Source of the DNA: Hydrogenophaga sp.
GTDB taxonomy: Bacteria > Pseudomonadota > Gammaproteobacteria > Burkholderiales > Burkholderiaceae_C
NCBI RefSeq assembly: GCF_026125785.1
Contig: NZ_JAHCKL010000001.1
Span: 376,949 to 440,948 of the forward strand
Direction of reading: 5' to 3'
Length of the DNA stretch: 64,000 nucleotides
Within the stretch, counting starts at the first letter, position 1. The number at the start of each line of letters is the position of its first letter. The notes beneath the pieces were generated by a model. It was not told the origin of the DNA. It did no database searches and saw only the letters and a program-made list of their open reading frames with translations. The translations under genes were made by a program, and so were the position numbers. Shown here one piece after another: positions 24,289 to 63,710 of this stretch.

Positions 24289-24387
24289 GATCACCTTAAA
24301 CCAGGGTCGCTATCGCTCCACGTTGTTGCGAATAACATCCTCCGTTTGCTGCGATCGTGCTCTGCAGAACGGTTAAAAAACACTTGC

Positions 24388-24439
24388 ATATCGTAGCGCT
24401 ATCATATATCGTATCTGTATTGTAATTAATGGATATGAT
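24388..24439. promoter_or_regulatory. Repeat-rich operator/promoter of the KfrA-like gene
   Basis: Two direct copies of ATATCGTA (24388-24395 and 24406-24413) are spaced 18 bp apart, and ATCATAT (24401) is inverted as ATATGAT (24433). KfrA proteins bind such repeats in their own promoter region, so autoregulation is likely. Confidence 0.5.
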
Positions 24440-33588: not shown

Positions 33589-34573
33589 CATGCGTTCGGG
33601 CATCAACACCACTCCGCTCCTTGAAATGAAGCGGGATTGCTTGGGTCCACACCCCTTTATGCCCAACTTGATGCTGGTCAGAACTTTCAAGCGCAGAGGA
33701 AAAGGTGCGCAATTAACGTCACTGCGGCAAACTCATATCCACGACCTTGCAGCGTCGATCCCCATGGATGGCGTCGCGGTGCTAAAAATGGTGCTGGGAA
33801 TGACGCAGAACCTCGTCGCCGAGGCACCAGACGGCATCAAAGATCGTGTTTGGCTCTACCGCTCATCACAACGCGGTGACCTCAAGGGGCAAACACTTTG
33901 TCTGAATATGGGCCGCGTTCACGAAAATACCAAAGCAATAGTTCACCGCCACGGGTTGTTCGCCGATGACGGCTCAGTGTTGCGAGTCACACTTGGACGC
34001 CTACGAAAGACCATGGAAAACCGTCTATGGAAGCTCAGCGATGGCGACCTGCTTGCCGTGTCCGCAGTGATGGGCCATTCCCCCCAGGTCGCAGACAACC
34101 ACTACTTGCACCTTGATGAGCGCACCAAGGCCGAGGGTGCCAAATTCATTGGCGAGGCGTTGCCAGGCAAACTCAGGGGGCACGACCTCGTGCCCACCCC
34201 CACGGGTAGTTGCAAGGACAGCTTGCAAGGCGCGCTCGCTCCGAAGGACGGCTCAACACATTGCGCGGAGTTCACGCATTGCCTAGGGTGTCCGAGCTAT
34301 GCCATTGTGGGGACGGTCAAGGATCTGCACCGGCTCTTCAGTTTTCAGCGCTTCCTGATGTCGGAGGTAGGCTACTACGCCACGGACGAGTGGAGTGAGT
34401 GGCGCCTTCACCATCAGGACCTCATTGCAAGAATCGACCAAATTGCATACGACAACTTCATCCCGGAAATGGTGGCGCAAGCCAAGGCGCTTGCCGAGAA
34501 AAATCCCCATCCCTTCTGGGCGATACGCATGCGCCAGTCGCAACTGAGTCGAGAGGCACGCTATGGCCGGTAA
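33589..34573 (+). pseudogene. Tyrosine recombinase of the trio module, C-terminal part
   Basis: From 33589 the frame reads RSGINTTPLLEMKRDCLGPH, typical of the post-arginine segment of these recombinases. It goes on to KRRGKGAQLTSLRQ and VTLGRLRKTMENRLWKLSDG (HxxR region), then VSAVMGHSPQVADNHYLHLD with the presumed nucleophile Tyr. A Cys-rich stretch (CAEFTHCLGCPSY) near the C-terminus resembles TnpA/TnpB-type trio recombinases. It overlaps the next recombinase gene by 11 bp. The N-terminal half is at 32301-32849. Confidence 0.8.
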
Positions 34574-48634: not shown

Positions 48635-49171
48635 TTAACAGCCATAGCGCTTTGATCCGTCTGGCAGCAATTGATACCGGCCGCCCTTGGGGCCGGTGAC
48701 GCAATCCGTGGCATCAGCCGACTTGAGGCGGTTGCTTTGCCGAAACTCCCATGGAGCCATAGGGGGCGCTGCGGTTCCCTGCGTGCTCCACAGCCCGACA
48801 CGCGCCACGCGTGCTGCCTGCTCGGCCTCGGGAAATGCCGCATCTATCTGGTACCTGGTGTAGGCCCAGGCCAAGCCTGCCTTGACTTGTTCCAGATTGG
48901 CATCCTTACCGCGGCATTCGACCCTGGCCACCGTGCGGCCATAGCGATCCGTGGCTGTCGGCCTGATCGTCGCATCCGCCTTGAAGCATAGATCGGACAG
49001 GTGGCGCTTGCTGCGCTGGCCGAAGGCCTGGCGGCTCTCTGGCGCATCGATCTCGGCGAGGCGCACGCGTACTTGCTGATAGGGATGGGCTGGATCAGCT
49101 GCGGGGCAGCGGGTCGTCAGGGTATCGCCGTCGGATATTCCGACGATCAGGCAAAGCAGGGCGGCAAGCAT
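48635..49171 (-). CDS. Secreted thermonuclease (staphylococcal nuclease-like)
   Basis: A 178-residue protein with a short N-terminal hydrophobic segment (MLAALLCLIVG). SNase motifs: ISDGDTLT, VRVRLAEIDAPESRQAFGQR with the catalytic Arg/Asp/Glu set, DRYGRTVARVECRGKDANLE, and QVKAGLAWAYTRY. A C-terminal extension (CVTGPKGGRYQLLPDGSKRY) is common in proteobacterial homologues. ICE-borne nucleases of this type are frequent. It converges with umuC. Confidence 0.92.
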   Translation of the reverse strand: MLAALLCLIVGISDGDTLTTRCPAADPAHPYQQVRVRLAEIDAPESRQAFGQRSKRHLSDLCFKADATIRPTATDRYGRTVARVECRGKDANLEQVKAGLAWAYTRYQIDAAFPEAEQAARVARVGLWSTQGTAAPPMAPWEFRQSNRLKSADATDCVTGPKGGRYQLLPDGSKRYGC

Positions 49172-49272
49172 GCGCGATTGACTTCAATAAGGGACGCTGA
49201 GGATACTGGCATGCCGGAAACCTCCATGGGTTCTTGGGCCTTCCAACAACGTTGAACAACGAGGTGGGGCCA

Positions 49273-50325
49273 ATGATCCAGCAACGCTGCTCAGCATCGG
49301 CATGGATGGACGCGTTCCTTGATGAGCGCATGCATCTGCATGGCCTGACGTTTTCGTCAATCCACACCATGCGGATCGAACTCAATGGCTGGTTGCGCTG
49401 GCTCAACGCCAGGGGTATTGCGTGGGATGGGGTCACACCCTCGGACATCCGGCTATGGCTAGGGCACTATCGAGAGTACGCCGATTCGACGATGCAGAAA
49501 AAGACCGCAATTCTGCGCAGCCTGTACCGATGGGCGCGGGCGCACGAGCTCGTCGAATCCGACCCCTGGCAGCCTATCGTTCGTGTATGCAACAACAGAC
49601 CATGGCGCCCACGTTTCACGCCCTCTATCCGCGCCGTTGATCTGCTGCTTTCCCAACCCGACGTTACCACCATGATCGGCGTGCGCGACCGCGCCATCCT
49701 GGAGCTGTTGTATGCGACGGGTCTGCGCGCGGCCGAGTTGCTTGGCCTGGCCTGCCATCAGGTCGCCAGCGGAGACTCCGACCGGATCATTGCGGTGATG
49801 GGAAAGGGTCAGAAGGAACGCATCGTGATCTACGGGCGAACCGCACAGACATGGCTGCGCTACTACCTCCGTGTGGCCAGGCCGCAACTGCTCGCCAGAG
49901 CCGAAATCCCCGCTGGTCGGGTAACTCAGTTCTTTGTTCATCCCGGGTACATGGGGAGCCTGTCCTATCAGAACTTTCGGCGCATGGTTCGGGATTACGC
50001 GGATGCTGCCGGGCTACCCCTGTTGACCGCCCATTCGCTGCGCCACGCATTTGCCACCCACCTCTATCAGGGCGGCGCCAACCTGAGGGTCATCCAGGAA
50101 CTGCTCGGCCATAGTCATCTGGCAACGACCTGCATCTATGCCCGGCCAGCGCCAGAGTTGATGCTGGCATTCATTGAGCGCTTTCATCCGCGCGGTATCC
50201 ACTACGATCGATCTCAACGCTGCCAACCCCGGGACACGTTGATCCGCCCCGTCACATCGTTGCGACCCGTGCAGAAAGATCACCTCGCTTTGTTTGATCG
50301 CTGGCTTGTCAAAACAGCGACATGA
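49273..50325 (+). CDS. XerC/XerD-like tyrosine recombinase
   Basis: A 350-residue protein (start MIQQRCSASAWMDAFLDERM at 49273; a further upstream start at 49234 is possible). Core-binding domain, then the catalytic domain with LLYATGLRAAELLGLACH (Arg), VMGKGQKERIVIYG (Lys), LTAHSLRHAFATHLYQGGAN (His/Arg) and LGHSHLATTCIYARPAPELM (Tyr). All catalytic residues are present. The last codons (RWLVKTAT) lie in the 27-bp repeat found again at 51862-51888, so the gene end doubles as a candidate recombination site. Confidence 0.92.
   Translation: MIQQRCSASAWMDAFLDERMHLHGLTFSSIHTMRIELNGWLRWLNARGIAWDGVTPSDIRLWLGHYREYADSTMQKKTAILRSLYRWARAHELVESDPWQPIVRVCNNRPWRPRFTPSIRAVDLLLSQPDVTTMIGVRDRAILELLYATGLRAAELLGLACHQVASGDSDRIIAVMGKGQKERIVIYGRTAQTWLRYYLRVARPQLLARAEIPAGRVTQFFVHPGYMGSLSYQNFRRMVRDYADAAGLPLLTAHSLRHAFATHLYQGGANLRVIQELLGHSHLATTCIYARPAPELMLAFIERFHPRGIHYDRSQRCQPRDTLIRPVTSLRPVQKDHLALFDRWLVKTAT
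50299..50325 (+). repeat. 27-bp direct repeat, copy 1 (candidate att site)
   Basis: Begins CGCTGGCTTGTCAAAACAGC and ends in GACATGA. It is identical to 51862-51888. Contains the inverted arms CGCTG and CAGCG around an 11-bp centre, the form of a tyrosine-recombinase core site. This copy forms the last codons and stop of the XerD-like gene. Confidence 0.85.
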
Positions 50326-50386
50326 ACGCCAGTGTGGCCGGGGTATTCTCCATTCTCCGGGCTATGAACGGCGAGATTCGAGAAGG

Positions 50387-50788
50387 TCAAGCGGTCTTGA
50401 CCTCGTTGAGAAGGTCGGGGTGACGATCCAGCAGCTTGAACAGCTTGACCAAGGCCAGGGGCGGCTTGGTCTTGCCGTTCTCGTAGCGCGAGAAGGCATT
50501 GATACCGCCACCGAAGATTTCGGCGGCCTCGCGTTGGCCGAGGTCGAGCTTCTTGCGCACGTTGACGATGAAGGCGGGGTCAACGATGGCCGCATTCACC
50601 TGCTTGTTGAACGCCTGCATCTCACGCATGACGCGCTCGGTCTCAAGCATATCGGTGATGGACTCATCGCACGCCGGGCAAAAGTCAGCCGTCACCGCAG
50701 GAATCACCGTGGTTTCGCCCTTGTAGGTATAGGGCAGGTCGCGGGTGTCGTGGATCAGTTCCGCCGCGCCGCAAACAGGACATTTCAT
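50387..50788 (-). CDS. mqsA: MqsA-family antitoxin
   Basis: A 133-residue protein (start MKCPVCGAAEL at 50788, 8 bp after AAGGAG; an ATG at 50794 overlaps the toxin stop). The N-terminal zinc domain has CPVC and CPAC, the C-terminal half is an XRE-type HTH (LGQREAAEIFGGGINAFSRY). MqsA neutralises MqsR and represses the operon. Intact here, while the toxin is truncated. Confidence 0.93.
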   Translation of the reverse strand: MKCPVCGAAELIHDTRDLPYTYKGETTVIPAVTADFCPACDESITDMLETERVMREMQAFNKQVNAAIVDPAFIVNVRKKLDLGQREAAEIFGGGINAFSRYENGKTKPPLALVKLFKLLDRHPDLLNEVKTA

Positions 50789-50790
50789 GG

Positions 50791-50907
50791 TCATAGCTCC
50801 TTGTAAGACACGATCAGCACGTCATCAATGACCGTCAACTTCAGGTACAGGTCGCCCGCCGGCGTGCTTGTGCGGTACACGTCCTGCCATACCTTGTACT
50901 GAATTTG
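50791..50907 (-). pseudogene. mqsR: C-terminal fragment of MqsR toxin
   Basis: Only the last 34-38 residues remain (KVWQDVYRTSTPAGDLYLKL, TVIDDVLIVSYKEL), a clear MqsR C-terminus. It is overlapped by the antitoxin frame. Upstream of about 50907 the sequence switches to a piece of another TA locus on the opposite strand. About 60 N-terminal residues are missing, so the RNase toxin is dead. Confidence 0.85.
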
Positions 50908-50913
50908 CTGACA

Positions 50914-51107
50914 CCCGGCGACCTGCCGCCGAAGTTCCGTGCCAAGGTGCTCGCTGAGGCGCAACCGGTATGAGCGCGAACCACCGACGGCCGGATTACC
51001 TTGACCACATCCAGCAGGCCGCGACCGATGCATGCAGCTTCGTGGAAGGGCTGACCGAGGACGACTTCCAGGCCGACAAGCGCACCCAACCCAGCAGGCC
51101 GTCATGA
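50914..51107 (+). pseudogene. Fragments of an MNT antitoxin end and HepT (HEPN) toxin start
   Basis: The plus strand reads PGDLPPKFRAKVLAEAQPV-stop (C-terminus of an MNT-type nucleotidyltransferase) overlapping an ATG at 50970 (ATGA) that starts MSANHRRPDYLDHIQQAATD, ACSFVEGLTEDDFQADKRTQ. This is the N-terminal part of a DUF86/HepT toxin. A 5-bp insertion shifts the frame before QAVVMSL, and the remainder is lost. It is a broken MNT/HEPN pair. Confidence 0.7.
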
Positions 51108-51128
51108 GCCTCCACTTTACCGCTGGCG

Positions 51129-51410
51129 TCAACCGAAAAGCTCGCTGTGTGAGCCACGCCGCGCCAACCGCAGGGTGTCGGCACCGGATTTGCGGTAGAT
51201 CAGCAGCAGGTCTGGCTTGACATGGCATTCACGGTAACCCGCCCAATTGCCGGACAGGTCGTGGTCTCGGTGACGCGCATCGAGGGGCTGGTCGGTCGCC
51301 AGCGCGACCAGTATCGGTTTGAGCTCGTCATCGAGTGTGGCACGGTGCTGGCCCTTGGCTTCGCGCTTGTAGTCGCGCTTGAACGCTGAGGATCGATCAA
51401 TCGTCCGCAC
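51129..51410 (-). CDS. RelE/YafQ-family toxin
   Basis: A 93-residue RelE-superfamily RNase: SSAFKRDYKREAKGQHRATL, PLDARHRDHDLSGNWAGYRE, CHVKPDLLLIYRKSGADTLR, and LARRGSHSELF. The His residues and the C-terminal GSHSELF fit YafQ. It overlaps the antitoxin by 14 bp and is complete. Confidence 0.93.
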   Translation of the reverse strand: MRTIDRSSAFKRDYKREAKGQHRATLDDELKPILVALATDQPLDARHRDHDLSGNWAGYRECHVKPDLLLIYRKSGADTLRLARRGSHSELFG

Positions 51411-51666
51411 GCAGATCCACCATCAGATCGTCCACGGTGGCGAACTTTTTGCCCTTGCCGGCTTCTAGCTCAGCGATGGCCTTCTTCGTGGTGGCGTTGG
51501 GCACCTTCACCTCGAAGGGCAGGCGGTGCTCGTCGGCTATGCGCAGCATCAGCAGGCGGATGGCGTCGGAAATCGACAGGCCCATTGCTTCGAGAGCAGT
51601 GGCTGCGCGCTCCTTGGTGTCGGAGTCAATACGGGCGCGGACATAGGTGTCGGCGGTTGTGCTCAT
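51397..51666 (-). CDS. RelB/DinJ-family antitoxin
   Basis: An 89-residue ribbon-helix-helix protein: DTYVRARIDSDTKERAATAL, EAMGLSISDAIRLLMLRIAD. The palindrome TTGTAGTC...GACTACAA at 51700-51722 lies just upstream and is its likely operator. Overlaps the YafQ-like toxin. Confidence 0.93.
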   Translation of the reverse strand: MSTTADTYVRARIDSDTKERAATALEAMGLSISDAIRLLMLRIADEHRLPFEVKVPNATTKKAIAELEAGKGKKFATVDDLMVDLRADD

Positions 51667-51699
51667 GGCAGTTATCCGGGAACGGTTCAGACATGCACA

Positions 51700-51722
51700 T
51701 TGTAGTCACAACAAGACTACAA
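51700..51722. promoter_or_regulatory. Putative RelB/DinJ operator
   Basis: TTGTAGTC-ACAACAA-GACTACAA has perfect 8-bp arms and lies 33 bp upstream of the antitoxin start. Confidence 0.65.
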
Positions 51723-51861
51723 ATCGCCAACTCATTGATGCCACAAGACGTGACGGGTGCGATGCTTCGTTGCCCCTGCAGAGCGCACCGCACTACGCCA
51801 GGGCACCATGACCCGCCGTATCACGTGGCTGCAGCTGCCAGCACAGTCCCCCCTGGTGGAA

Positions 51862-51888
51862 CGCTGGCTTGTCAAAACAGCGACATGA
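51862..51888 (+). repeat. 27-bp direct repeat, copy 2 (candidate att site)
   Basis: Identical to 50299-50325. This copy overlaps the last codons and stop (51872-51874) of the first conjugation gene, read on the minus strand. The two copies bound the TA segment 50326-51861. Confidence 0.85.
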
Positions 51889-52783
51889 CCACGAACACCA
51901 TGCAGACCACGATCAACCCCCGCTTCATGTACAGCAGCAGATCGGCCGTGGCGATCACGCCCCTGGCGTAGCGCTGCCAGACACCCAGCATCGCGCTGCC
52001 GACCACAAGCAGAGTGACCACCACCAGCAGCATCTGGTTGATGGAGCGCAGCTTTGCCATGCTGATGCCAGAGCCCGACTGGAAGCCCGCCGCTATGGCC
52101 GCGTTCATGCTCATGCATCCGCCGCTGCCGTCGCGCACGCAACTCGACGGCGTCCAGGACGGGTTGTAGCTTGTCCCGGTTCCCGCTATGGGGGGTGAAC
52201 CCGGACTGGGCGCCGGGCCAGAGCTACCGCCCGTCATCTTGTCGGCCATGGTGCAGATCGTCGTGCCGTTGATGTCGGCAAAGCCCGTGCATTTGCCCGA
52301 GTTGATCATCGTTTGGCAGTTGCCGACACCGAGCTGAACGCACGACAGCACCAGGTTGCCATCGACCGTGCGGCCGTCAAACTTGCCCAGGGCGACCAGC
52401 GACGCGGGCGGCTTAGTGGCCAGCATCTGCGTGGTCAGCTTCGACCACGCATCGACCTGTTGCTGCAGGCTCCAGGTCTGGAATACCGCTGGCTCAACCT
52501 TGGCGAACTCCTTGACGTTCTGCGTGTTCAATTGCAGTACGCCAAAACAGCATGAGCCGTTGTAGATCCCCAGCCGGCCGCCGCTCTCGAACATGGCCAG
52601 GTTGCCCACGGCGTCCGCGTTGGCGCGCAGCCATGGGCTGGCATGGGGCGAGTTGCGCACGGCGTTCGCCACATCCGCCGCCGTAACCCGATCCTGGGCA
52701 TGTGACTGCCTGGCCAGCATGAGTGTCGCCACGGCCAGCAGGGCGATGATCAGCCAGCGAAGGGTGGAGGGCAGGGCCGTCAT
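51872..52783 (-). CDS. Exported ICE conjugation protein, lytic-transglycosylase-like, with C-terminal membrane helices
   Basis: A 303-residue protein; the start at 52783 gives a signal peptide (LRWLIIALLAVATLMLARQS, cleavage after SHAQ). Residues 60-90 read LAMFESGGRLGIYNGSCCFG and VLQL, the Glu-Ser-Gly-Gly...G-x-x-Q pattern of transglycosylases (Glu66 candidate). The middle is Gly/Pro/Ser-rich and Cys-containing. Two membrane helices end the protein (MLLVVVTLLVVGSAMLGVW and LIVVCMVFVVMSLF). It could open peptidoglycan for the transfer channel. The 27-bp repeat covers its 3' end. Confidence 0.75.
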   Translation of the reverse strand: MTALPSTLRWLIIALLAVATLMLARQSHAQDRVTAADVANAVRNSPHASPWLRANADAVGNLAMFESGGRLGIYNGSCCFGVLQLNTQNVKEFAKVEPAVFQTWSLQQQVDAWSKLTTQMLATKPPASLVALGKFDGRTVDGNLVLSCVQLGVGNCQTMINSGKCTGFADINGTTICTMADKMTGGSSGPAPSPGSPPIAGTGTSYNPSWTPSSCVRDGSGGCMSMNAAIAAGFQSGSGISMAKLRSINQMLLVVVTLLVVGSAMLGVWQRYARGVIATADLLLYMKRGLIVVCMVFVVMSLF

Positions 52784-52803
52784 GAGGTCGCCTCGGCTGC
52801 GGC

Positions 52804-53412
52804 TCAGGGCAGCTTGATTGCCCGGTTGCATTCCGGCGCCGGCTTGCCGTACTGCACCACGCGGACATAGGCCATCCTGTTCTTCGCATCAAACGCGACC
52901 TGCTCGTAGTTGCGCGACTTGGGCTGAAACTGGTCGTTCGAGGTGATGTTGCAGTAGCGCGGAAAGTCCTGCTGCGTGGCCTGTCCACCCGATAGGCTTT
53001 GGATCACCACGCGCATCGGGCATATGGCATAGATGGGGGTGTTGATGGCGCTGCTGTTGGGCGGGTCTTCACACTGCGGATAGACCAGCGATGCGGCGCT
53101 CAGGATGGTGAAGATGTACCGATTGCCACCTGACTCGAATGCAGCAATGTTCACGAATGCGGGGTATTTGCCTCCGCTTTCATGCGGCGGAAGACCCTCC
53201 AGTGTCGGCGCCCAGATCGCGGCGGCGAGCTTTCTGGATTCAGGTGTGCCCTCATAGCCGGGGAAGTTGAAATCGAAGGCCAGCATATCCATGGTTTGCC
53301 ACTGCAGGCCCTTCGGGAACTCCACCTTCTTGCCCTGGGCCTGGGCGCCCACGGCCAGTGACAGGCCCAGGGCCAGGACGGAAACCGTCTTGCGAAACTG
53401 CATATTCATCAC
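52804..53412 (-). CDS. Exported ICE conjugation-region protein
   Basis: A 202-residue protein with a signal peptide (MQFRKTVSVLALGLSLAVGA, cleavage after QAQ); the start is 53412 or the third Met at 53403. Several Cys residues (CEDPP, ICPM, RYCNIT, PECNR) suggest disulfides made by the DsbC-like protein encoded next. Family not named here. It belongs to the minus-strand transfer operon. Confidence 0.7.
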   Translation of the reverse strand: MMNMQFRKTVSVLALGLSLAVGAQAQGKKVEFPKGLQWQTMDMLAFDFNFPGYEGTPESRKLAAAIWAPTLEGLPPHESGGKYPAFVNIAAFESGGNRYIFTILSAASLVYPQCEDPPNSSAINTPIYAICPMRVVIQSLSGGQATQQDFPRYCNITSNDQFQPKSRNYEQVAFDAKNRMAYVRVVQYGKPAPECNRAIKLP

Positions 53413-53436
53413 TCCTGCTGCGTCTTTACTGGGCCG

Positions 53437-54162
53437 CTATTGCGCCTTGCCGCTGGCATCGAGCTCGGCCACGAACTGCTCAGGCGGGGTGGCTCCCACC
53501 AGGCGCTTGCCATTGCCGAGGAATACCGTGGGCGTGTTCTGGATGCGGTGTTTTTCACCGAACTTGAGGATTTCCACCAGGCCCGACACGTCGCAGTCCT
53601 GGTTGCCGGTCGGGCGCCGGCCCGCCATGATGGCCTTCCAGGTGCCGGCCCGGTCAGGAGAGCACCAGGCCGTGCGCGCCAGCGCCTGCGAGCTCGGGTC
53701 AATGACCGGTAACATGAAGCGGTACACGGTCACGTCATCGAGCTGATCGACGAACTTGGTGAACACCCTGCAGATGGGGCAGTTGGGATCTTCAAAGAGG
53801 GCGACCTTGCGGCTGCCGTTGCCATGCACCTCCTTGATCGCATGCTTGAGCGGCAGGCTGGAGAACGGCACCGAGGTCAGCCGGTTCATGGTGTCCGCCG
53901 TCAGATCCTGCCGGGTCTGCATGTCGAGCATCGTGCCGCCGATGATGCCGAAGCGCCCGCTGGCGTCGGTGTAGAACACCTCGCCGTCAGAAATCACCTG
54001 GTAGATGCCAGGGGCAGGCGTCGCCTGAATCTGATCGACCTTGACCTTGCCGCCTGTCAGGCGCTCGATGTTTGCCTTGATGGTGGCGGGCGATTGGGCC
54101 AGGGCGCTGCCGCTGGCAAACAGTGCCGCCAGCGTGATGGCGAGGATGTGCCTGGGTATCAT
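53437..54162 (-). CDS. DsbC-like disulfide isomerase of the ICE
   Basis: A 241-residue periplasmic protein. Signal peptide (MIPRHILAITLAALFASGSA), N-terminal DsbC dimerisation domain (VDQIQATPAPGIYQVISDGE) and thioredoxin domain with CPIC (DPNCPICRVF, about residues 128-134) and cis-Pro in NTPTVFLGNGKR. It presumably folds the Cys-rich TraU/TraH-like and other transfer proteins. The longer frame to 54252 overlaps the next gene and is not used. Confidence 0.92.
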   Translation of the reverse strand: MIPRHILAITLAALFASGSALAQSPATIKANIERLTGGKVKVDQIQATPAPGIYQVISDGEVFYTDASGRFGIIGGTMLDMQTRQDLTADTMNRLTSVPFSSLPLKHAIKEVHGNGSRKVALFEDPNCPICRVFTKFVDQLDDVTVYRFMLPVIDPSSQALARTAWCSPDRAGTWKAIMAGRRPTGNQDCDVSGLVEILKFGEKHRIQNTPTVFLGNGKRLVGATPPEQFVAELDASGKAQ

Positions 54163-54178
54163 GCAACGGGACTCCCTG

Positions 54179-54682
54179 TCAGTAGTCGAAGGCCCGCACG
54201 CCCTTGGCAGCGCGGCAGGTTTCGATGGTGTTGCGAATGAGCTGTGACACATCCATCGCGTTCGGGATGGCGTTGATCAGCAGCGTGGGGCACGAGGCAT
54301 CTGTCGTGTGCAGAGTGATCCGGTCGCGGCCAAAGATGGTCTGCATCAGCGTGCTGCCGATGGACATGTCCTTGACCCGGTAGAGCTCCAGGGACTCCAC
54401 CCGTTTGACGATGATCCCGGACTCCACCAGCAGCCGCTGGTCGGTCAGTGTGTAGCGGTGATTCGCCGTGGCCAGGTAGCGGTACAAGGCCCAGGCCACG
54501 GGAAACAGCAGCCAGAAGCAGAACAGGGCAAACACAAACACCGCGGCGTTCACCACCTGTCCCTCCGAGGCCGACCACAGCACATGCACTTCGGGCGTCG
54601 CGTTGATACCGGAGTGAACCGGCATCGCCGCTGACTCCAGGGCCGTCCTGCTCGCTGGTGCTGCTGAAGTAGGGTCTGTGTG
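54179..54682 (-). CDS. Membrane protein with PH (DUF304/YdbT-like) domain
   Basis: A 167-residue protein. Two close hydrophobic segments (VVNAAVFVFALFCFWLLFPV, then WALYRYL) are followed by a bacterial PH domain: RYTLTDQRLLVESGIIVKRV, ESLELYRVKDMSIGSTLMQT, FGRDRITLHT. The start MHTDPTSAAPAS at 54682 is preferred. It sits in the transfer operon between DsbC and TraG-type genes. Role unknown. Confidence 0.8.
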   Translation of the reverse strand, partial: HTDPTSAAPASRTALESAAMPVHSGINATPEVHVLWSASEGQVVNAAVFVFALFCFWLLFPVAWALYRYLATANHRYTLTDQRLLVESGIIVKRVESLELYRVKDMSIGSTLMQTIFGRDRITLHTTDASCPTLLINAIPNAMDVSQLIRNTIETCRAAKGVRAFDY

Positions 54683-55344: not shown

Positions 55345-56982
55345 TTAGCGTTTGCCGCGAGTCACAAACGACGTTGAAGTCTTTGCGGATGATTGCGCTG
55401 TTGACTCAGCGCTACCCATTAGCTTTCCTAGTCCACCACCGATATTCACTCCGATCCATGTCATCATCGCTGTCCAAATAACTGGCAGTCCGATGAATAA
55501 GGTCAGCAGCAATATGTTCAGGATCATCCGCTTGTATCCCTGCGGCGTTGACCCACTGGCGAGGTGCGTCAGTTCCTGAATCAACATATTGCCCTGGCCC
55601 CCGGGGTACATGGCGCTGATCAGGCGCGCGTCTATCCACTGAGCAATGAACCACATCGCGGCCCAGAGCTTCACCGTAAAAATGGCCACAGCGCCGTAAA
55701 ACATCGCGCGCAGATCGAATCCGCTCAGAAATACCACCAGCGGCAGGAACATATAGATGCCCATGAGCACCAGCGCCTGCATCATCGGCAACGCCGTGAT
55801 GAGGGGCGTGAAGGCCACACCCGCAACCGCTGCGGCCGAGCCAACACCAATGGTGCTCAGGGCGCCCCCGGCGATGCGCCCAATGCTGGTCGCCACGTCA
55901 TAGTCCGACCCGGAAATCCGATCCTGATCGACAAAGCTGGGATTGGCCTTGGCCTGTGCCAGCCTGGCAAAGGAGTCCTTACGCTGGTCATTGCTGCCCC
56001 AGGTCATGGCGCTGGCACCGACGTTCAGTAGCTGCTGCCACGTTGATGAGTGAGAAATCATCTGCTCGCGCACGCCCTGCGTGGAATCCTCCCACCACTC
56101 CTTGCAGGTGGGGCGCCCCCAGGCGGGATTGATCACGCCGGGATTGGGCGGCGGCAGGCCGCTGCTGGGGTTGTAGTAGTCCGTGTCCCGCGTGAAATCC
56201 ACCACGAACCCAGGCACCGGGTTGTAGCTGCGCATATGGGCGTAGAACCCCGGTTCGGTGCGGAACAGCTGGCTGCCCATCCAATCCACGTCGGTCGGGC
56301 CATAGGCCTTGTTGGTGGGGTCAAGGACGGTCTGGCCTGCCGGAGAAATATCCCCCGCGGTCAGCGTCAGGTAGCGGCTGCGGGCTGGAACAAAGCATTC
56401 GCTGTAGAAGCGCTGAACGGAGTTGAGCACTTTCGGATCTTCGATGGTGGCGGTGCGCGCCAGGTCTTCGACCATGCGGATCGAACTGCCGGAATTGTTC
56501 AGGCCGTTGCGCACGGCGTTGTTCACGCCCGAACTGATGGCCATTACCGAATACCACCAGGCCGGCACATAGGACAGATTGCCGGTACCGCTCATCGAAC
56601 CATCGACACTGTCATGCATGGCGCTGTCGAAGCCCGAGCCCGTGCCGCCATCGCGCGAGCCCTGCACCGGGCTGGGAGCCAGCGGCGTGGCCGGCGGCAT
56701 GTAGGCGAGATTGGTGTGGTGCAGCGACGTGATCAGCGTGGTCGCAAAACATACCGACATCACGAACAGCGCAATGATCAGGCGCGTCATCGCGCGCTCC
56801 AGCAGGGCCAGCACGCCCGAACTCTCCAGACCCTGCTCCTTGGCCTCGCGCCAGCTCTGGAAGATGATGATGGCGAACGGAATGATCACCAGGCCAGTGC
56901 CGGTGATGACTTCGCTAATGATGTTGGCGAAGGCCCAGCCGTACATGGTCGTGAAAATCTCCAGGTAGCTGTCGAGCTGCAT
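55345..56982 (-). CDS. TraG N-terminal-domain conjugation protein
   Basis: A 545-residue membrane protein. N-terminal helices (AFANIISEVITGTGLVIIPF, LIIALFVMSVCFATTLITSL) are followed by a large periplasmic part with the TraG-N pattern (YVPAWWYSVMAISSGVNNAV) and C-terminal helices (LPMMQALVLMGIYMFLPLVV, FYGAVAIFTVKLWAAMWFIA). It is shorter than F TraG, containing the N-terminal mating-pair module. Adjacent to TIGR03755/03756 genes as in other GI-type ICEs. Confidence 0.9.
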   Translation of the reverse strand: MQLDSYLEIFTTMYGWAFANIISEVITGTGLVIIPFAIIIFQSWREAKEQGLESSGVLALLERAMTRLIIALFVMSVCFATTLITSLHHTNLAYMPPATPLAPSPVQGSRDGGTGSGFDSAMHDSVDGSMSGTGNLSYVPAWWYSVMAISSGVNNAVRNGLNNSGSSIRMVEDLARTATIEDPKVLNSVQRFYSECFVPARSRYLTLTAGDISPAGQTVLDPTNKAYGPTDVDWMGSQLFRTEPGFYAHMRSYNPVPGFVVDFTRDTDYYNPSSGLPPPNPGVINPAWGRPTCKEWWEDSTQGVREQMISHSSTWQQLLNVGASAMTWGSNDQRKDSFARLAQAKANPSFVDQDRISGSDYDVATSIGRIAGGALSTIGVGSAAAVAGVAFTPLITALPMMQALVLMGIYMFLPLVVFLSGFDLRAMFYGAVAIFTVKLWAAMWFIAQWIDARLISAMYPGGQGNMLIQELTHLASGSTPQGYKRMILNILLLTLFIGLPVIWTAMMTWIGVNIGGGLGKLMGSAESTAQSSAKTSTSFVTRGKR

Positions 56983-57023: not shown

Positions 57024-57497
57024 TCACCCTCCCAAGCCCAGGTAGCGCCACAGGGTCGTCGGCCCTATGGGCACCAGCAGCAGGTAGGCCACGCCCAGCG
57101 CCAGCACGGCCGGGCGCAGGCGCAGCACGCGGGCCAGCTCGTGGGTCTTGACGATGTTGCGGGCATGGCCCCAGGCCACGATGCGCTGCCACCAGATGCC
57201 TATGGCCGCCAGGGCCAGGCATTGCGCGAACAGGCCCCAGCGCTTGATGCTGGCCGCCAGCTGCAGCCAGTCCTGCAGGGTCTGCTGGCTGACCTGGGAG
57301 CGTGCGGCCAGCGAGGCCAGTAATGCCGCGACCAGCACACAGATCAGAACGAGCAGCGCCAGGCGCAGCACCAGCCGTCCGATGCCGCGCGCCTGCTGTG
57401 CGCGAGACTTCGTGCTGTCGGCCTGGAGCGGTGTCCGCTCGCTCTTGGGCGACTCGGGAGGTGGCGTGTGCTGCGTCATGTTCCGCTCCAGGCTCAT
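57024..57497 (-). CDS. Small integral membrane protein of the transfer operon
   Basis: A 157-residue protein with a charged, disordered N-terminus and about three membrane helices (VLRLALLVLICVLVAALLAS, WGLFAQCLALAAIGIWW, AVLALGVAYLLLVPIGPTTL). Overlaps the end of the TIGR03755 gene by 4 bp. ICE-specific; family name not recognised. Confidence 0.7.
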   Translation of the reverse strand: MSLERNMTQHTPPPESPKSERTPLQADSTKSRAQQARGIGRLVLRLALLVLICVLVAALLASLAARSQVSQQTLQDWLQLAASIKRWGLFAQCLALAAIGIWWQRIVAWGHARNIVKTHELARVLRLRPAVLALGVAYLLLVPIGPTTLWRYLGLGG

Positions 57498-58888
57498 GGC
57501 TTGACGCGACCGTTGTCCAGCGGCGCGGGGTCGGGCCTGCGGCCATCCGGTACGCGCATCGCCTGGGTATCGGCCTGCAGCTGGCCGCCCATGATGGCCA
57601 GCGCCGTCTCGGCCGTCAGCTCCTTGCGGATGCGTGACTCGTACATCAGGTCGTCGATGTAGCGCGTCAGGCGGTTGATGGTTTCCTGGGTGTCGCGGAT
57701 GGCGTCGCCGGCCCCGGCCACCTCGGGCAGGCTGATGCCGGTCAGCAGGGCCGCGCGCGCCACCAGCGCCTTGTCGATCACGCGGTGCATGGCCAGCTCC
57801 TGGGACAGGCGATTCACTGCGATGCTGCGCGTCTCCACCGGCAGGCGGCGCAGCGCATCGAGCAGCTGCGGGCTCACGGCCATGCCGGGCGCGGCGATGG
57901 TCTGAAGCTCCGCATAGGTGGCAGGTGTTCCCGCCCCCGTGCCGGAACTGGCGAGGACATTCAGCTTTGGCGCCACCAGGTTGTACTCGTCCTCGTACTT
58001 AGGGCCCAGGCCCGTGGCCGTGGTCACGGTGGTCGGGGTGGGACAGCCGGATGTACCTTCCGTGCAGGTGTAGATGCGCTTGTCGCCCAGCACCTCGGTG
58101 GTGAACTTGGCCAGGTCGTTGGGCGTGGGGAAGGCCCGCACCAGGCGGGCATCCTTTTCCAGGGCACTTGCGGAATAGTTGGTGGTCGGCGATGCCGTGG
58201 CCGGCTTGTTCAACGTGACGTTGTAGCCCGCGATCGAGATGTCATGGATGGGAGAGATGGGCCTCGAAGAGGCGCCGCCGGCGAGCCCGCCGAACCAGGG
58301 TATGCCGCGGATATGGGCCTGGTCGTTTTTGGTCAGGTCGAGCTTGGCCTGTACCACGTCCCCCCCGGCCGTGGCCTTGATCTTCCACAGGTCGCCCTGG
58401 GCCATCTTCACCCAATCCTCATACGGATTCTGACCCTGGCGGATGACGGCCTCCATCTCCTCGCAGGTCTTGAGCGCGGCGCCGATCATGGTGTCGGCCT
58501 TGAGCGAGTAGTTCTGGAAAAGCTGGTAGAGGCCCGGCTGGGCACGTTGCAGCACATACAGCGGCAGCGAGGCGATGCCGGCCTTCACCGCATTGCTGAC
58601 CTGCGTGCCCAGGCTGCTGAACCCGTTCATCAGGTTCGACCAGGACAGGCCGATGTCGAACTTGCCGCAGGAGTAATTCAACCGCAAGTTGCCCTGTATG
58701 CCCAGAGTGTTGGCCAGCTGCCCGCGGTAGGCCGCCGCGCCACCCGGCGAGCCGCCGCCCATGCGGTAATAGAGCGATGAGTTGTTCACCGGCTGAGCCT
58801 GCGCCGGGGCATGGCACAGCAGGACGCCCATGACGGCCGCCGACAGCAGGCGCAAGGCTGGGGGATAGGTGTGTGACAAAGCAGGCAT
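57494..58888 (-). CDS. TIGR03755 (PFL_4711) ICE protein, TraH-like
   Basis: A 464-residue exported protein. Signal peptide (LRLLSAAVMGVLLCHAPAQA), then LRLNYSCGKFDIGLSWSNLM, a hallmark of the family, a long helical region, and a C-terminal helix (RLTRYIDDLMYESRIRKELT). Functions in mating-pair formation at the outer face in the family. Lies between TraG-N and TIGR03756 genes. Confidence 0.9.
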   Translation of the reverse strand: MPALSHTYPPALRLLSAAVMGVLLCHAPAQAQPVNNSSLYYRMGGGSPGGAAAYRGQLANTLGIQGNLRLNYSCGKFDIGLSWSNLMNGFSSLGTQVSNAVKAGIASLPLYVLQRAQPGLYQLFQNYSLKADTMIGAALKTCEEMEAVIRQGQNPYEDWVKMAQGDLWKIKATAGGDVVQAKLDLTKNDQAHIRGIPWFGGLAGGASSRPISPIHDISIAGYNVTLNKPATASPTTNYSASALEKDARLVRAFPTPNDLAKFTTEVLGDKRIYTCTEGTSGCPTPTTVTTATGLGPKYEDEYNLVAPKLNVLASSGTGAGTPATYAELQTIAAPGMAVSPQLLDALRRLPVETRSIAVNRLSQELAMHRVIDKALVARAALLTGISLPEVAGAGDAIRDTQETINRLTRYIDDLMYESRIRKELTAETALAIMGGQLQADTQAMRVPDGRRPDPAPLDNGRVKP

Positions 58889-58903
58889 TGCCTTACTCCG
58901 TGG

Positions 58904-60262
58904 TCAGGGAACCGAGAAAAGGTAGATGCCACGGCGCTGGCAGCAGTCGTAGTTGTGCCAGAGGTTCCAGACATAGCCGTCCGTGGAGCTGGTCTTGAAG
59001 TCGCCGAATGAGGCCAGTGACAACGAGTCGTTGTCACCGAACTCGATGCAGGAGGTGCTGGAGGGCGACAGCATCTGCCAGCGCCTGCCACTGAACTGCG
59101 AGAAATACTTGAAACCACCGCCAGGCGACAGCGGCGCGTAGATATGCGGCTGGGCGCTTCTGGTGATGATGGATGCCACCCGTTCGGCATACACCGCCGA
59201 GGCCTTGACCGGGTGCGACTGCACCAGTTTTCCGGTGCGCGGATAGCGTCCGCCCCAGGTGCTGAGTGCAGGCGACTTGCTGACCTCTTGCATCGTGGGA
59301 ATCCAGCTTGCCGGGTAGAGCATTTCTACGGGAATCAGCTCACGCCAGAACAGCGAATCCAGATCCGACTGGAAATGCAGCGTGAAGGCCGATGCCGAGC
59401 CGGGACAGAACAGTGAACCGAGCGGGTAGCCGCCGCCACTGGCGACCTGGGCGATCTGCATGACGCTCTGCAGCGGCCCCAGATCCACCCCCGTCAGCTT
59501 GGAAACCGTGATGCCCAGATCGCCTAGCTTCATGCCCGCGTTCATGAGGCTGCCGACATTGCCGACGGCCGACTGCAGCTTGCCCAGATAGCCGGGAACG
59601 GCGCCAATCTTGCCCAGGATGTCGGCAGGCGCCTTGGCCAGGCTGGCGGCGCCGGCCAGGACGTTGTTGGTGAGCGTCCCCGGCACGGACAGCCATTGCT
59701 GCTGGATGCTGGGCAGCTCCTGATAGGGGAATTTCATCAGCTCGCCGACCCCTGGCACGCCAAAGGCACTGGGCAGATCGGGCAGGGTGCCGCTGGCGAG
59801 CGTGGCCAGGATCATGCCTGCAGGGTTGCCGATGGCGTCCACGCTCTTGAACGTGGCCATTTCCCGGTGCTCGCGCGCCGAGCTGGACGAGGCATCGACC
59901 GGCATGCCCATCATCGCCGCGCCGACGGCACTCATGGTCGCCGCCAGTGGCTTGCCGATGTCCAGCCAGGGGTGGGTCAGAGGCTCGTGGTAGCTGCTGA
60001 CGATCGCATCGGGCACATAGTGGCTGATGCGTATCGACGTGCGAATGGTGCAGCCCTTGAGGGTGCAGTACAGGAAGAAGCAAATGCCCTTGACCCGGTA
60101 GCTGAGGCAGCTGGGCATGGCGGCGATGGTCTTGGTGAGGATCATCGGCGTGGTGATGGTGTCTGCCCGCGCAGGCAACGCCATGGAACAGGCCAGGGCC
60201 AACACCAATGGGGCCAGCAGGCAGCGACGGGCCAGCTGCTGCAGGGCCGTGCGGATGGTCAT
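58904..60262 (-). CDS. TIGR03756 (PFL_4710) ICE protein, TraU-like
   Basis: A 452-residue exported Cys-rich protein. The start at 60262 overlaps the upstream TIGR03757 stop (ATGA) and gives a signal peptide (LLAPLVLALACSMALPARAD). TraU-like features: ITTPMILTKTIAAMPSCLSY, CFFLYCTLKGC, TLHFQSDLDSLFWRELIPVE, and NLWHNYDCCQRRGIYLFSVP at the end. Its many Cys fit dependence on the DsbC of the operon. The longer frame to 60703 is an artefact. Confidence 0.92.
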   Translation of the reverse strand: MTIRTALQQLARRCLLAPLVLALACSMALPARADTITTPMILTKTIAAMPSCLSYRVKGICFFLYCTLKGCTIRTSIRISHYVPDAIVSSYHEPLTHPWLDIGKPLAATMSAVGAAMMGMPVDASSSSAREHREMATFKSVDAIGNPAGMILATLASGTLPDLPSAFGVPGVGELMKFPYQELPSIQQQWLSVPGTLTNNVLAGAASLAKAPADILGKIGAVPGYLGKLQSAVGNVGSLMNAGMKLGDLGITVSKLTGVDLGPLQSVMQIAQVASGGGYPLGSLFCPGSASAFTLHFQSDLDSLFWRELIPVEMLYPASWIPTMQEVSKSPALSTWGGRYPRTGKLVQSHPVKASAVYAERVASIITRSAQPHIYAPLSPGGGFKYFSQFSGRRWQMLSPSSTSCIEFGDNDSLSLASFGDFKTSSTDGYVWNLWHNYDCCQRRGIYLFSVP

Positions 60263-60708
60263 GGCTTGCCTCCCGGCTGGCGGCGCGCCAGCTCCAGGGC
60301 CTGGTGCACGTCCGTGATGCCATAGACCACGGTCTTGCGGTTGATGACGATGGCCGGAATGCGGCTGAGCCGGTAGTTGGCGGCCAGCGTGAGGCCCTGG
60401 GCGGCCGATTCCACCTGCGGCTGCACCTGGCGGCGGATGCGCGCCTCGTTGGCCGCTATCCACTGCTGCGCCTCGGCCTCGGTCTGGGGCAGGTTCTGGT
60501 TGATCGCGGCCTCGATGTTGCGCATGGCATCGAGCCGGTACACCTTGAGCTGGTAGGGCAGGGCGGGCGATGGCTCGGGCGTGACCAGCATCGCCGAGTT
60601 GGCGAACACCTCCACCGTCATGACCCCTGCCGCACCACCCTGGGCATGAGCGGCGCCGGCCAGCAGCAGGGCGGCAAGCGTGCATGCGAGCCGGTGGTGG
60701 CATGTCAT
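60259..60708 (-). CDS. TIGR03757 (PFL_4709) ICE protein
   Basis: A 149-residue exported protein with a thioredoxin-like layout but no CxxC. Signal peptide (ACTLAALLLAGAAHAQ), VMTVEVFANSAMLVTPEPSP, YRLSRIPAIVINRKTVVYGI and TDVHQALELARR, like TrbC-type proteins. It overlaps the ATPase stop (start 60708) and the TIGR03756 start, so the three are translationally coupled. Confidence 0.92.
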   Translation of the reverse strand: MTCHHRLACTLAALLLAGAAHAQGGAAGVMTVEVFANSAMLVTPEPSPALPYQLKVYRLDAMRNIEAAINQNLPQTEAEAQQWIAANEARIRRQVQPQVESAAQGLTLAANYRLSRIPAIVINRKTVVYGITDVHQALELARRQPGGKP

Positions 60709-63700
60709 GAGCGTGTCCTCGCCAGTTCGCGCGCCACCATCATGGCGGCCTCCATCTCGGTGCAGCCATGCTGCTCCATGAGACGCCTGCGCTGGGCTTT
60801 TTCGTGACCCTCGGTCATCGCCAGTGCAATCGGCAGGGCCGGTGGCACGTTCCTGAACAGGAACTGGCCGGTCGCGGAAATCATCACCCCTTCGGTGTAC
60901 TTGGGCGGCTCCTTGCGCGCCGATTCCATCAGCTTGCGCTGCTCGGGCGTCAGAGTTCGGAAGCGCGTGACCTCCTCGATCTCCGACTTGTCCATGGTCA
61001 GCAGCATCCAGTATTCGCACATGGACAGCACGCGATCCATGCTGCCGGGGAAGTCCTTCAGGTTCTGCGTCGCCAGCCAGAACCAGATGTTCAGCTTGCG
61101 CCACATCTTCGTGCCCTTGGCAATCTTCGGGCCGAGCAGGTCGTTGGTCGTGATCAGGTGGCCCTCGTCGGTGAGGAAGATGATGGGCCTGTCCTCGGCC
61201 ACGAAGCGCTCACCACGCGACTGCACCGAATCGAGCAGGCTGGTGTAGGCCACGGCCAGGGCGTCGCCATAGCCGTCCTGGGTCAGCGTGCCCATTTCCA
61301 CCAGGGTCACGTCTGCATCCGGCCAGTCCTGGCCTTCGCGGTTGAACAGCTTGCCGCGCAGGCCCTGGGTGAAGCTCATCATGGACTGGCCCATTTCCTC
61401 GGCACGGATCTGGCGCGGCCCGGACAGGGTGGCGTCCTTGTGCATGCCCATGAGCTCAATCGCCACGTCATGCGCGAGCGGGTGCCGCCGACCTTCCTCG
61501 CGTGCGCGCGTCGCCGCGCGGATGATGGCGCGCGAGATCAGGTAGCGGTCGGCACGGCCCATGCGCGCGGTTTCGCCGCTCTCGCCACCCGTGATCATCA
61601 TGATGGCGGCGATCAGCATCTCGCCGAGCAGGTCGCGCTTGTCCGTGGCGGCCTGGTCGTCCTCGCCCTCGGATTGCTCCGGGTCTGAGTTCATTGCCGC
61701 ACCGGGCTGCGCCGCATCGCTGTCGCCCAGCAGCGCGTCCATGACCGGTGCGTCGGGCAGGCCGGCGTTGATGCGCGCCTGGCGCTCGGCCGCATCGAAG
61801 GAGGTCATGATGTCCGCGTCATCGAGCAGGCGATTGGCATGCACGAAGGGCGGCAGCGACACGTCGGCCTCGCTGCTGAGCGTCACCGAATGGGTGGACA
61901 GGCCCATGGTGCGGAAATAGTCCAGCAGCAGGCCGAACGAGCGCCCGGCATCGACGATCACCAGGCGCGGCCGGTGGATGGCCATCATCATCATCGCCAG
62001 GTAGTTCAGCGTGGCCGATTTGCCTGCGCCGGTAGGCCCGAGCACCAGCATATGGGCGTTCTTCTTGCGGTCATGCTTGTTCAGCGGGTCGATCCAGATG
62101 GGCTCGCCGCCCCGGTTCCAGAACCAGAAGCCCGGATGGTTCGTGCCGCGTGCCCGCCCATAGACGGGCAGCAGCGCCGCGATCTGTGAGGCAAAGGTCA
62201 GGCGCGAGCGGCGCAGGGCGCGGTTGTCGAAGGCCGGGTCGAAGTTGAACGGCAGGCCGCGCATGAAGCCGTCCAGCGGCACCAGATCCTGGCGTGGATG
62301 GACGAAGCGCAGGCCGGTGGGCACCAGCAGGGCATTTGTCTGGGATACCGCCGTCTCCAGGGCTTCGCGGTTCGGCCCGGTCACATACAGCGTGACCATC
62401 ATCGGAAACAGCTTGTCGCCCTCGACCATGCGGTGCAACACCAGCTCGCATTCGCGGTGTGTCTCCATGGCCAGGGCATTGCGCGCACGCGAGGAGTCGC
62501 GGATGCGCTCAATATGGCGCTCCAGCTTGTACTGCGGCTCCACCGTGATCGAGATCGACAGCATGGAGCCGGCCGGCAGGCGGTCAAAGCGCGCGAAGGC
62601 CTCGTTGCCGCTTTGCAGCTCCGCTGAGAAATGCCCGATCTGCGGCGATGAACGCATGGACTGCAGTACCAGGGCCTTCACCGGCACGCCATCGAACTCG
62701 AACAGGCCATCCTGTACGTCCGAATAGGGCTCCGACAGGGTGAGCAGCTCGGCCATGTCCCAGCCAAAGATGGGGGCCGCAGCGGCGCCGGCCATGCTGC
62801 CGGTCTGCCCGGCCTGCTGGGGATCGTCGCCGGGGTAGGGCGCCAGGCGCATCAGGCCCGCATCGCTCTGCGCCCAGGGCACATCGCGGTTGAAGAAGGG
62901 CAGCAGCCATTCATAGAGGTCACGCCCGTTGCAACGGCGTGTTTTCACCCCGGCCTCGCTGAGCGTGGCGGTCAAGGTCACGGCGACGGCCTCGATCTGC
63001 GTGGTGGCGGGCGAGGGGTCTTCGGCCAGCGAGGCAAAGCGCTTGTAGAGACAGCAGCGCACGCGCCGCTGCTGGCCGCGCCAGACCTGGCCCGTCACCT
63101 GGGTATCGGTGAACAGGCCCTGCGGGCGCGATGCCAGATCGATATGTTCTGCCACCTCGGACAGCACCGAGCGCGTGAACGGGGACTGCAGGACGTTGCT
63201 GGCCCGCTCAGGGTAGCGGCCGTGCTGAGCGGCGATGTAGTCGCGCAGCGCGCCATTGAGGCCGTCGATGTTGCGGTCATCGTTGAGGAAGAACTGCACG
63301 ATCCAGGGCGAGGCATCGGACTCGGGCAGGGCCTGCAACGCTTCCTGCACCTTGTTGGCGCGATCAACCAGGAAGTCCAGTGCCTGGGCCTCGGTGGGTA
63401 CGGCGGTCAGCTCGAAGAATACGCCCAGGGTGGAGCCATCCTTGAGCACAAAAACCTGCTCGTCGCCGTCATAGGAGACATAGGGCAGCATGTCCGTGAA
63501 CGATGGCGGGCGCATTGCCATGCGGCGGCGTTGCCCCACGGTTTCGCCACGCCCCGGCTTGGCGCTGCGCTGCTGGCTGTCGCTGCTGTCCCGCTCCTGC
63601 CGGGCCTCGCGGCCGCGCGCCCTGGCGTCGCCCTGCGCACCGCTGCCCGTGGATGCGCGCCGCGCACCCAGGCCGAACAGTCCCAGGCCGAGTTTCTGTA

Positions 63701-63710
63701 TCAGTTCCAT
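60705..63710 (-). CDS. Conjugative transfer ATPase TIGR03744 (PFL_4706; TraC/VirB4-like)
   Basis: A 1001-residue cytoplasmic ATPase. An N-terminal TraC-F-like region (PSFTDMLPYVSYDGDEQVFV, LKDGSTLGVFFELTAVPTEA) is followed by the motor: Walker A in VLGPTGAGKSATLNYLAMMM (about residue 560), Walker B in DRPIIFLTDEGHLI (about residue 845) and an arginine-finger region near FWLATQNLKDFPGSMDRVLS. A Ser/Arg-rich disordered stretch lies at residues 20-50, and an acidic insert (NSDPEQSEGEDDQAATDKRD) near residue 680. It energises T4SS assembly and pilus function. Confidence 0.96.
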   Translation of the reverse strand: MELIQKLGLGLFGLGARRASTGSGAQGDARARGREARQERDSSDSQQRSAKPGRGETVGQRRRMAMRPPSFTDMLPYVSYDGDEQVFVLKDGSTLGVFFELTAVPTEAQALDFLVDRANKVQEALQALPESDASPWIVQFFLNDDRNIDGLNGALRDYIAAQHGRYPERASNVLQSPFTRSVLSEVAEHIDLASRPQGLFTDTQVTGQVWRGQQRRVRCCLYKRFASLAEDPSPATTQIEAVAVTLTATLSEAGVKTRRCNGRDLYEWLLPFFNRDVPWAQSDAGLMRLAPYPGDDPQQAGQTGSMAGAAAAPIFGWDMAELLTLSEPYSDVQDGLFEFDGVPVKALVLQSMRSSPQIGHFSAELQSGNEAFARFDRLPAGSMLSISITVEPQYKLERHIERIRDSSRARNALAMETHRECELVLHRMVEGDKLFPMMVTLYVTGPNREALETAVSQTNALLVPTGLRFVHPRQDLVPLDGFMRGLPFNFDPAFDNRALRRSRLTFASQIAALLPVYGRARGTNHPGFWFWNRGGEPIWIDPLNKHDRKKNAHMLVLGPTGAGKSATLNYLAMMMMAIHRPRLVIVDAGRSFGLLLDYFRTMGLSTHSVTLSSEADVSLPPFVHANRLLDDADIMTSFDAAERQARINAGLPDAPVMDALLGDSDAAQPGAAMNSDPEQSEGEDDQAATDKRDLLGEMLIAAIMMITGGESGETARMGRADRYLISRAIIRAATRAREEGRRHPLAHDVAIELMGMHKDATLSGPRQIRAEEMGQSMMSFTQGLRGKLFNREGQDWPDADVTLVEMGTLTQDGYGDALAVAYTSLLDSVQSRGERFVAEDRPIIFLTDEGHLITTNDLLGPKIAKGTKMWRKLNIWFWLATQNLKDFPGSMDRVLSMCEYWMLLTMDKSEIEEVTRFRTLTPEQRKLMESARKEPPKYTEGVMISATGQFLFRNVPPALPIALAMTEGHEKAQRRRLMEQHGCTEMEAAMMVARELARTRS

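Follow-up and report, generated by a model that had tools for sequence, protein, structure and literature searches.

Variable accessory genes past the 3' end of a Xer-family recombinase gene in an integrative conjugative element of Hydrogenophaga: a candidate cargo hotspot

A 27-bp repeat encloses toxin-antitoxin genes beside a recombinase gene

We describe a locus within 64,000 nucleotides of Hydrogenophaga sp. DNA (assembly GCF_026125785.1, contig NZ_JAHCKL010000001.1, positions 376,949 to 440,948; the whole stretch is referred to below as the window) at which toxin-antitoxin (TA) genes lie between the gene of a Xer-family tyrosine recombinase and the transfer genes of an integrative conjugative element (ICE). 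The recombinase gene (49273..50325, + strand; PF00589, 107.5 bits) encodes 350 aa from its ATG, in a frame that is open from a TTG at 49234. Its final eight codons and stop form one copy of a 27-bp direct repeat (50299-50325); the other copy, at 51862-51888 and also on the + strand, holds the end of a transfer gene on the opposite strand, tra319, in such a way that the stop (51872-51874), the last four codons and two further bases account for 17 bp and sequence past the stop for the remaining 10 bp. The match is exact, and the open reading frame (ORF) ends agree with an original prediction, made from the sequence alone, which placed the two copies at the 3' ends of a recombinase gene and of a conjugation gene on the opposite strand. 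A chance origin of the repeat is rejected by a shuffled-sequence control, in which 0 of 100 shuffles gave a 27-bp pair with 3 or fewer mismatches. With the exception of a short tandem array at 19.9 kb, the window holds no other exact same-strand repeat of at least 24 bp, and no third copy with up to 3 mismatches was found in the 4.17-Mb assembly, which is 93.8% complete. The inverted arms (CGCTG/CAGCG) that had been likened to a tyrosine-recombinase core are present in the 27-mer, but arms of at least 5 bp also occur in 544 of 4000 random 27-mers from the window; they are therefore no evidence of a recombination site, and we rejected them as a recombinase core.

Reading rightwards from the first copy, the interval holds an MqsA antitoxin gene (50387..50794, - strand; PF15731, 214.7 bits), the 3' part of a truncated mqsR (50791..50897, - strand), in which homology to the intact mqsR of a related genome stops at 50897, a possible HepT-like scrap (50970..51104, + strand), a YafQ toxin gene with relatives on many plasmids (51129..51410, - strand; PF15738, 107 bits) and a RelB antitoxin gene (51397..51666, - strand; PF04221, 77 bits). 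The expectation that only TA genes and their scraps would lie here holds for MqsA, YafQ and RelB, all above the Pfam cut-offs, and for the mqsR remnant, but the HepT-like match is weak (12.8 bits against a cut-off of 23.5) and an MNT scrap was confirmed by no search. No transposase-like or resolvase-like gene was recognised among the interval ORFs searched by family, and positions 51712-51861 have no significant plasmid match. The open frame before the second copy was considered as a diverged recombinase tail and found unsupported, 2544 of 5000 shuffles being equally good. A relative of yafQ/relB with 88.1% DNA identity lies on a Pseudomonas aeruginosa plasmid, where its neighbours are a pair of recombinase genes and a transposase gene of the Tn3 family. 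In four plasmid TA loci that we inspected no annotated tyrosine recombinase adjoins the module, but at one of them a 'phage integrase family protein' is annotated at a distance of about 3 kb and another has Tn3-type genes.

An empty site and a second filled site in close relatives

Among 399 genomes of the same bacterial family the 27-mer (with 3 or fewer mismatches) occurs in three, each time with this recombinase gene and in at most two copies. One of them, G283, provides the empty site for which a search had been proposed: its alignment with the window ends at 50325 and restarts at 51859, the two parts meeting over a single 27-bp copy with no cargo between them, and its recombinase and transfer genes are convergent with a 17-bp overlap. 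In G497, which is 97-98% identical to the window around the site, the left copy and left junction are as in the window and mqsRA is intact, so that what lies between the copies differs between two elements which both have cargo and repeat. The right copy of G497 is degenerate, its last 17 bp differing at one base and its first 10 matching at 6. Directly before it lies a 54-bp piece which matches, at 87% identity, a central part of the recombinase gene of G283, and a second recombinase-gene stretch therefore once sat between mqsRA and the transfer gene.

Two attributes of a site-specific island are thus present, direct repeats at both ends in the window and a one-copy empty site in G283, although G497 retains no more than a degenerate right copy. 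The recombinase gene lies outside the repeat pair in the window, and a remnant of it lies inside the bounded unit in G497 and in a more distant relative, G419. The original prediction had named as adverse outcomes a constant content between the copies and a repeat found apart from the recombinase gene; neither was seen, because an empty site exists, the content differs, and in the family sample the repeat occurs only beside this recombinase gene.

Variable DNA follows the recombinase gene in related elements

Relatives of tra319 are found in 11 of the 399 family genomes. The related recombinase lies in the stretch examined in 9 of these and on another contig in G630, and none was found in the 16 kb examined of G342. 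Fourteen loci, including one on a plasmid, were compared (Comamonas plasmid NZ_CP104280). The recombinase gene occupies two places. In the first it converges with the transfer gene (window, G497, G283, G599, G1129 and G1133, and also G612 with 4.6 kb between the genes); in the second it is divergent from dsbC (G524, G647, G657, G1127, G419 and the Comamonas plasmid).

The DNA that follows the recombinase gene is diverse. In the first place it comprises mqsA with scraps and yafQ/relB in the window, mqsRA in G497, nothing in G283, and in G1133 a VapD-like gene (50.5 bits, below the cut-off of 100) with a 138-aa gene of unknown kind. G599 and G1129 have ORFs of 78 aa (L133:7011-7247) and 82 aa (L156:8144-8392), respectively, before the transfer gene, neither with a family in the libraries tried, and G612 has ORFs without a searched family, with an NYN/cold-shock protein gene 1.8 kb on. 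In the second place G419 has yafQ/relB (84-85% identical to that of the window), PD-Lambda-5 B and A (called by PADLOC; L140:2905-5238), a recombinase remnant and then TcmP; G524 also has TcmP, G647 has a 111-aa ORF with no family above cut-off, and the Comamonas plasmid has metabolic genes and, further on, a Tn3/mer element. G657 and G1127 carry two different ORFs at the same spot in near-identical ICEs, with no family above cut-off (L139:11251-11790 and L158:7156-7749). In G630 a FitA-like antitoxin and a PIN toxin (fitAB) follow, above cut-offs. The G630 transfer gene (L134:7213-8214) has one in-frame TGA and lies at a contig end.

TA genes, recognised by family cut-off or close identity, adjoin the recombinase gene in 4 of the 14 loci, a count that rises to 7 if the VapD-like, TcmP and NYN genes are included under a loose label. 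Variable DNA between conserved ICE genes of related elements is seen in three comparison groups, and the cargo differs between near-identical ICEs (G657 and G1127; G1133 and G599/G1129; window/G497 and G283). These comparisons support a recombinase-linked cargo hotspot. The proposal that TA cassettes collect at the recombinase 3' end is borne out as to variable cargo, often TA, in related ICEs, but the cargo is not TA alone.

Duplicated recombinase pieces and uneven borders

In G419 a further copy of the recombinase 3' part, in two pieces of 320 bp (98.8% identity) and 139 bp (96.4%), lies 4.4 kb beyond the first. The intervening DNA carries yafQ/relB and PD-Lambda-5, and the duplicated stretch starts within the last twelve yafQ codons. 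A likeness by eye of this yafQ-tail breakpoint to the 27-mer was dropped, because the yafQ tail is constrained by coding and the best match in G419 lies elsewhere, at chance level (43 of 200 shuffles).

On the right, the border of the variable DNA lies at the transfer-gene stop or no more than 10 bp from it in the window, G497 and G1133. On the recombinase side it is gradual in G657/G1127 and in G1133. G657 and G1127 are 95-100% identical in most alignment windows that precede the recombinase gene or cover its start, and 60-67% identical in its 3' part; they have nothing in common in the cargo, and identity recovers over about 200 bp beyond. G1133 likewise diverges from G599 and G1129 between a point shortly past the HPRG codons and the transfer-gene stop. 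Such patterns fit a swap in which cargo and part of the recombinase gene move together, as homologous recombination can bring about. For the far-side recombinase pieces of G497 and G419 a further process is required, for example the arrival of a unit with recombinase DNA.

The recombinase and its clade

The recombinase scores below cut-off on all the specific models compared (XerD, 203.4 bits against 329.6; XerC, 182.8 against 335.2; integron integrase TIGR02249, 74.2 against 265), and its nearest solved structure by sequence is 1a0p, XerD. Positions R152, K178, H254, R257, H280 and Y289, which we take to be the expected catalytic positions of the family, are invariant in both alignments. In a tree with 17 other Xer rows the recombinases of the 14 loci, which come from this ICE type or from its plasmid relative, group as a single clade (support 100/100). 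The G612 row in this tree is long and is cut at the contig start, and the outgroup rows are those 17, among 20 loci chosen from the 80 distant Xer matches listed (32-40% identity), that had an open frame. The recombinase tails past the conserved HPRG codons vary from 6 to 139 codons in 12 loci. A further tyrosine recombinase, of 380 or 366 aa, is present at a distance of about 42 and 45 kb in two relatives whose assemblies consist of a single contig; it is probably the ICE integrase.

The distribution of close relatives is narrow. Six of the 399 family genomes, that of the window included, match the recombinase at E <= 1e-60, and identity to the window's protein falls from 97% in G497 and 89% in G283 to 54% in G630, 49% in G599 and 42% in G647. 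Only the window's own recombinase was recovered in a sample of the order (399 genomes, E <= 1e-52) and in its own genus (67 genomes, E <= 1e-60), and a class-wide DNA search of 274 genomes gave no close recombinase. Over all the searches, which together cover 1,975 genomes with some of them counted more than once, close relatives were present in two genomes besides that of the window. Plasmids contributed 22 records, every one below 60% identity, among which the Comamonas plasmid alone was compared further. Viral contigs gave no match to the 27-mer and none to the transfer gene; four distant recombinase loci found there (26-34% identity) were not used.

The surrounding element

To the right of the locus tra319 (51872..52831, - strand; 319 aa; DUF3262, 25.7 bits, just below the cut-off of 27) is the first of a run of transfer-cluster genes on the - strand, which continues with genes for a 202-aa protein and a DsbC-like protein (52804..54252; ORFs and family search), a TraG N-terminal protein (55345..56982; PF07916, 170.7 bits) and further ICE transfer genes (57494..63710), among them those of a TIGR03755 protein and an ATPase matching traC_PFL_4706 (380.9 and 1204 bits, above cut-offs). 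The cluster is presumably of the 'GI' or MPF_G class.

To the left of the recombinase gene is a gene for an SNase-like nuclease (48635..49171, - strand; PF00565), which by synteny adjoins it in G497 and G283 as well. Homology on the left side of this pair begins at 48364 for G283 and at 48757 for G497, and the left side is thus variable too. A 205-aa gene at 24440-25057 shows 83% DNA identity (24375-25050) to a G283 gene that lies directly beside the SNase gene; the two stand about 23 kb apart in the window, with other DNA between them, which points to a second place of large insertion or rearrangement. The accessory DNA to the left of the SNase gene contains two more ORFs with a PF00589 signal, of 646 aa (14704-16644) and 618 aa (34563-36419); G497 has a related frame of 679 aa, about 51 kb to the left of its own recombinase gene.

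How the locus may have formed

The reading that we favour, with moderate confidence and on comparative sequence grounds, is that the 3' end of this ICE-borne Xer-family recombinase gene is a hotspot for accessory genes, and that the 27-bp repeat would be the leftover of a duplicated junction between the recombinase and transfer genes. The state without cargo, as G283 has it, is a pair of converging genes with 27 bp in common. A segment bearing mqsRA would have settled at this junction in the ancestor shared by the window and G497, flanked on its far side by a second stretch of recombinase gene; that stretch is attested by the G497 remnant, and its arrival together with mqsRA is probable rather than seen. 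Later, in the line leading to the window, the second stretch would have decayed and further TA DNA entered. The right-hand copy would then be the remainder of the duplicated overlap, with its last 17 bp presumably kept by selection as the end of the transfer gene, and later swaps of cargo with part of the recombinase gene between ICEs, to which the divergence gradient points, would have proceeded by homologous recombination. The empty site of G283, the 54-bp piece of G497, the independent duplication in G419, the differing cargo and the G657/G1127 gradient all appear to support this sequence of events.

Several points weigh on the other side. A far-side recombinase piece is seen in just two of the 14 loci (G497 and G419); the window itself shows no second recombinase stretch, the likeness of the frame before its second copy to the recombinase tail being non-significant; the remaining ICE pairs can be explained with no duplication of the recombinase; and two insertions with a common short repeat can arise in other ways.

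It is possible, but somewhat unlikely, that the locus is a plain hotspot of the SXT/R391 type, at which insertions are tolerated because both genes stay whole, with the recombinase as a bystander and the duplication as a by-product that selection has kept. Seventeen of the 27 bp belong to both of the overlapping genes, so that selection for keeping both whole also predicts a duplication at any insertion there; the right borders at or near the transfer-gene stop and a mixed cargo that extends beyond TA genes agree with this, as do the hotspots of SXT, for which sharp borders, one of them directly after a stop codon, and TA genes are reported (PMC2791158). A bystander would not be expected to have variable DNA track its 3' end in both places of the cluster, after tra319 and beside dsbC, and the duplicated recombinase pieces in two loci require a further cause.

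The integron-like platform of the original prediction, in which the recombinase would use the 27 bp as its attachment (att) site and TA circles, perhaps with a recombinase gene of their own, would integrate with one copy on each side, we consider unlikely. Recombining the two copies in the window would, point differences aside, yield the G283 junction; the restriction of the 27-mer, in the 399 family genomes, to the company of this recombinase and the invariant residues noted above are in keeping with this reading; and recombinase pieces on both sides of the cargo in two independent loci fit units with a recombinase gene at one end. Yet no locus with three or more copies, as tandem cassettes would give, was seen in the genome or the 399 family genomes, the right copy of G497 is degenerate, the arms are ordinary, and the G657/G1127 gradient points to homologous exchange. 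The 27-mer is moreover absent from the ends of 10 other recombinase genes, where best matches are at chance level save for a marginal one in G524 (17 of 27 positions, equalled in 4 of 200 shuffles, in one of 10 tests). A common att motif past the recombinase gene was sought in 12 loci and none was found beyond chance: for the top 7-mer, present in five loci, 37 of 300 shuffles were as good, and the 9-mer TCGCTGGCT, which occurs in three loci, two of them from a single lineage, was equalled in 47 of 300. Nor are integron traits evident, given the low integrase-model score and the lack of a cassette array (two copies; attC was not searched with a dedicated model).

A bolder variant, which we regard as quite unlikely, is that this Xer lineage, which sits within the conjugation cluster and is not the likely integrase, uses the 3' end of its own gene for the site-specific capture of TA and defence modules, with a crossover that replaces or duplicates the tail such that site and tail change together and come to differ from one lineage to another; if true, it would be a system for capturing cassettes that is neither an integron nor a set of dif modules. 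That the TA DNA is debris of Tn3-family transposons is very improbable. Insertion of Tn3 duplicates about 5 bp, which counts against it. Although the P. aeruginosa plasmid places a yafQ/relB relative beside a Tn3-family transposase gene and Tn3 elements bear TA pairs beside the resolvase (PMC7157771), the interval has no transposase or resolvase gene recognised among the ORFs searched by family (short ends were not searched) and no plasmid match at 51712-51861, and such debris would explain one module rather than a hotspot.

Comparison with known systems

Conjugative elements gather TA and defence genes at fixed spots, and the choice and loading of these spots are mostly open questions; for the SXT hotspots the authors left selection and a mechanism of recombination as alternatives (PMC2791158). 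In the present case the spot goes with a recombinase gene, with one empty and two filled sites at hand, and the recombinase clade can serve as a marker for finding such cargo. A search by titles and the openings of abstracts, with most subscription journals outside its reach, turned up no description of an ICE-borne Xer gene at whose 3' end TA genes are captured.

The locus shares features with several described systems. As in integrons, a tyrosine recombinase gene adjoins a place with varied small genes, but the recombinase falls short of the integrase model and there is no cassette array. The dif (pdif) modules have many sites per plasmid and are served by the host XerC/XerD, whereas here there are two copies and an element-borne recombinase whose action on the repeat is putative; the 27-mer presumably has no likeness to the dif site. 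The resemblance lies in a Xer-type enzyme and in small modules between short repeats, often with TA genes, as many of those on Acinetobacter plasmids have (PMC13141974). In Tn3 TA transposons a TA pair also adjoins a recombinase gene, the resolvase in most cases (PMC7157771), and such elements are a possible source of yafQ/relB; unlike them, the interval has no recognised transposase and the recombinase belongs to an ICE clade. The SXT/R391 ICEs, for which hotspots HS1-HS5 with sharp borders and the mosAT TA pair in HS2 are described (PMC2791158), likewise have variable DNA and TA cargo among conserved transfer genes, and the right-hand borders of the window, G497 and G1133 resemble theirs. 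The spot described here differs in its position, the 3' end of a gene for a Xer-family recombinase, where one ICE has a short exact repeat and two others show duplicated pieces of the recombinase gene.

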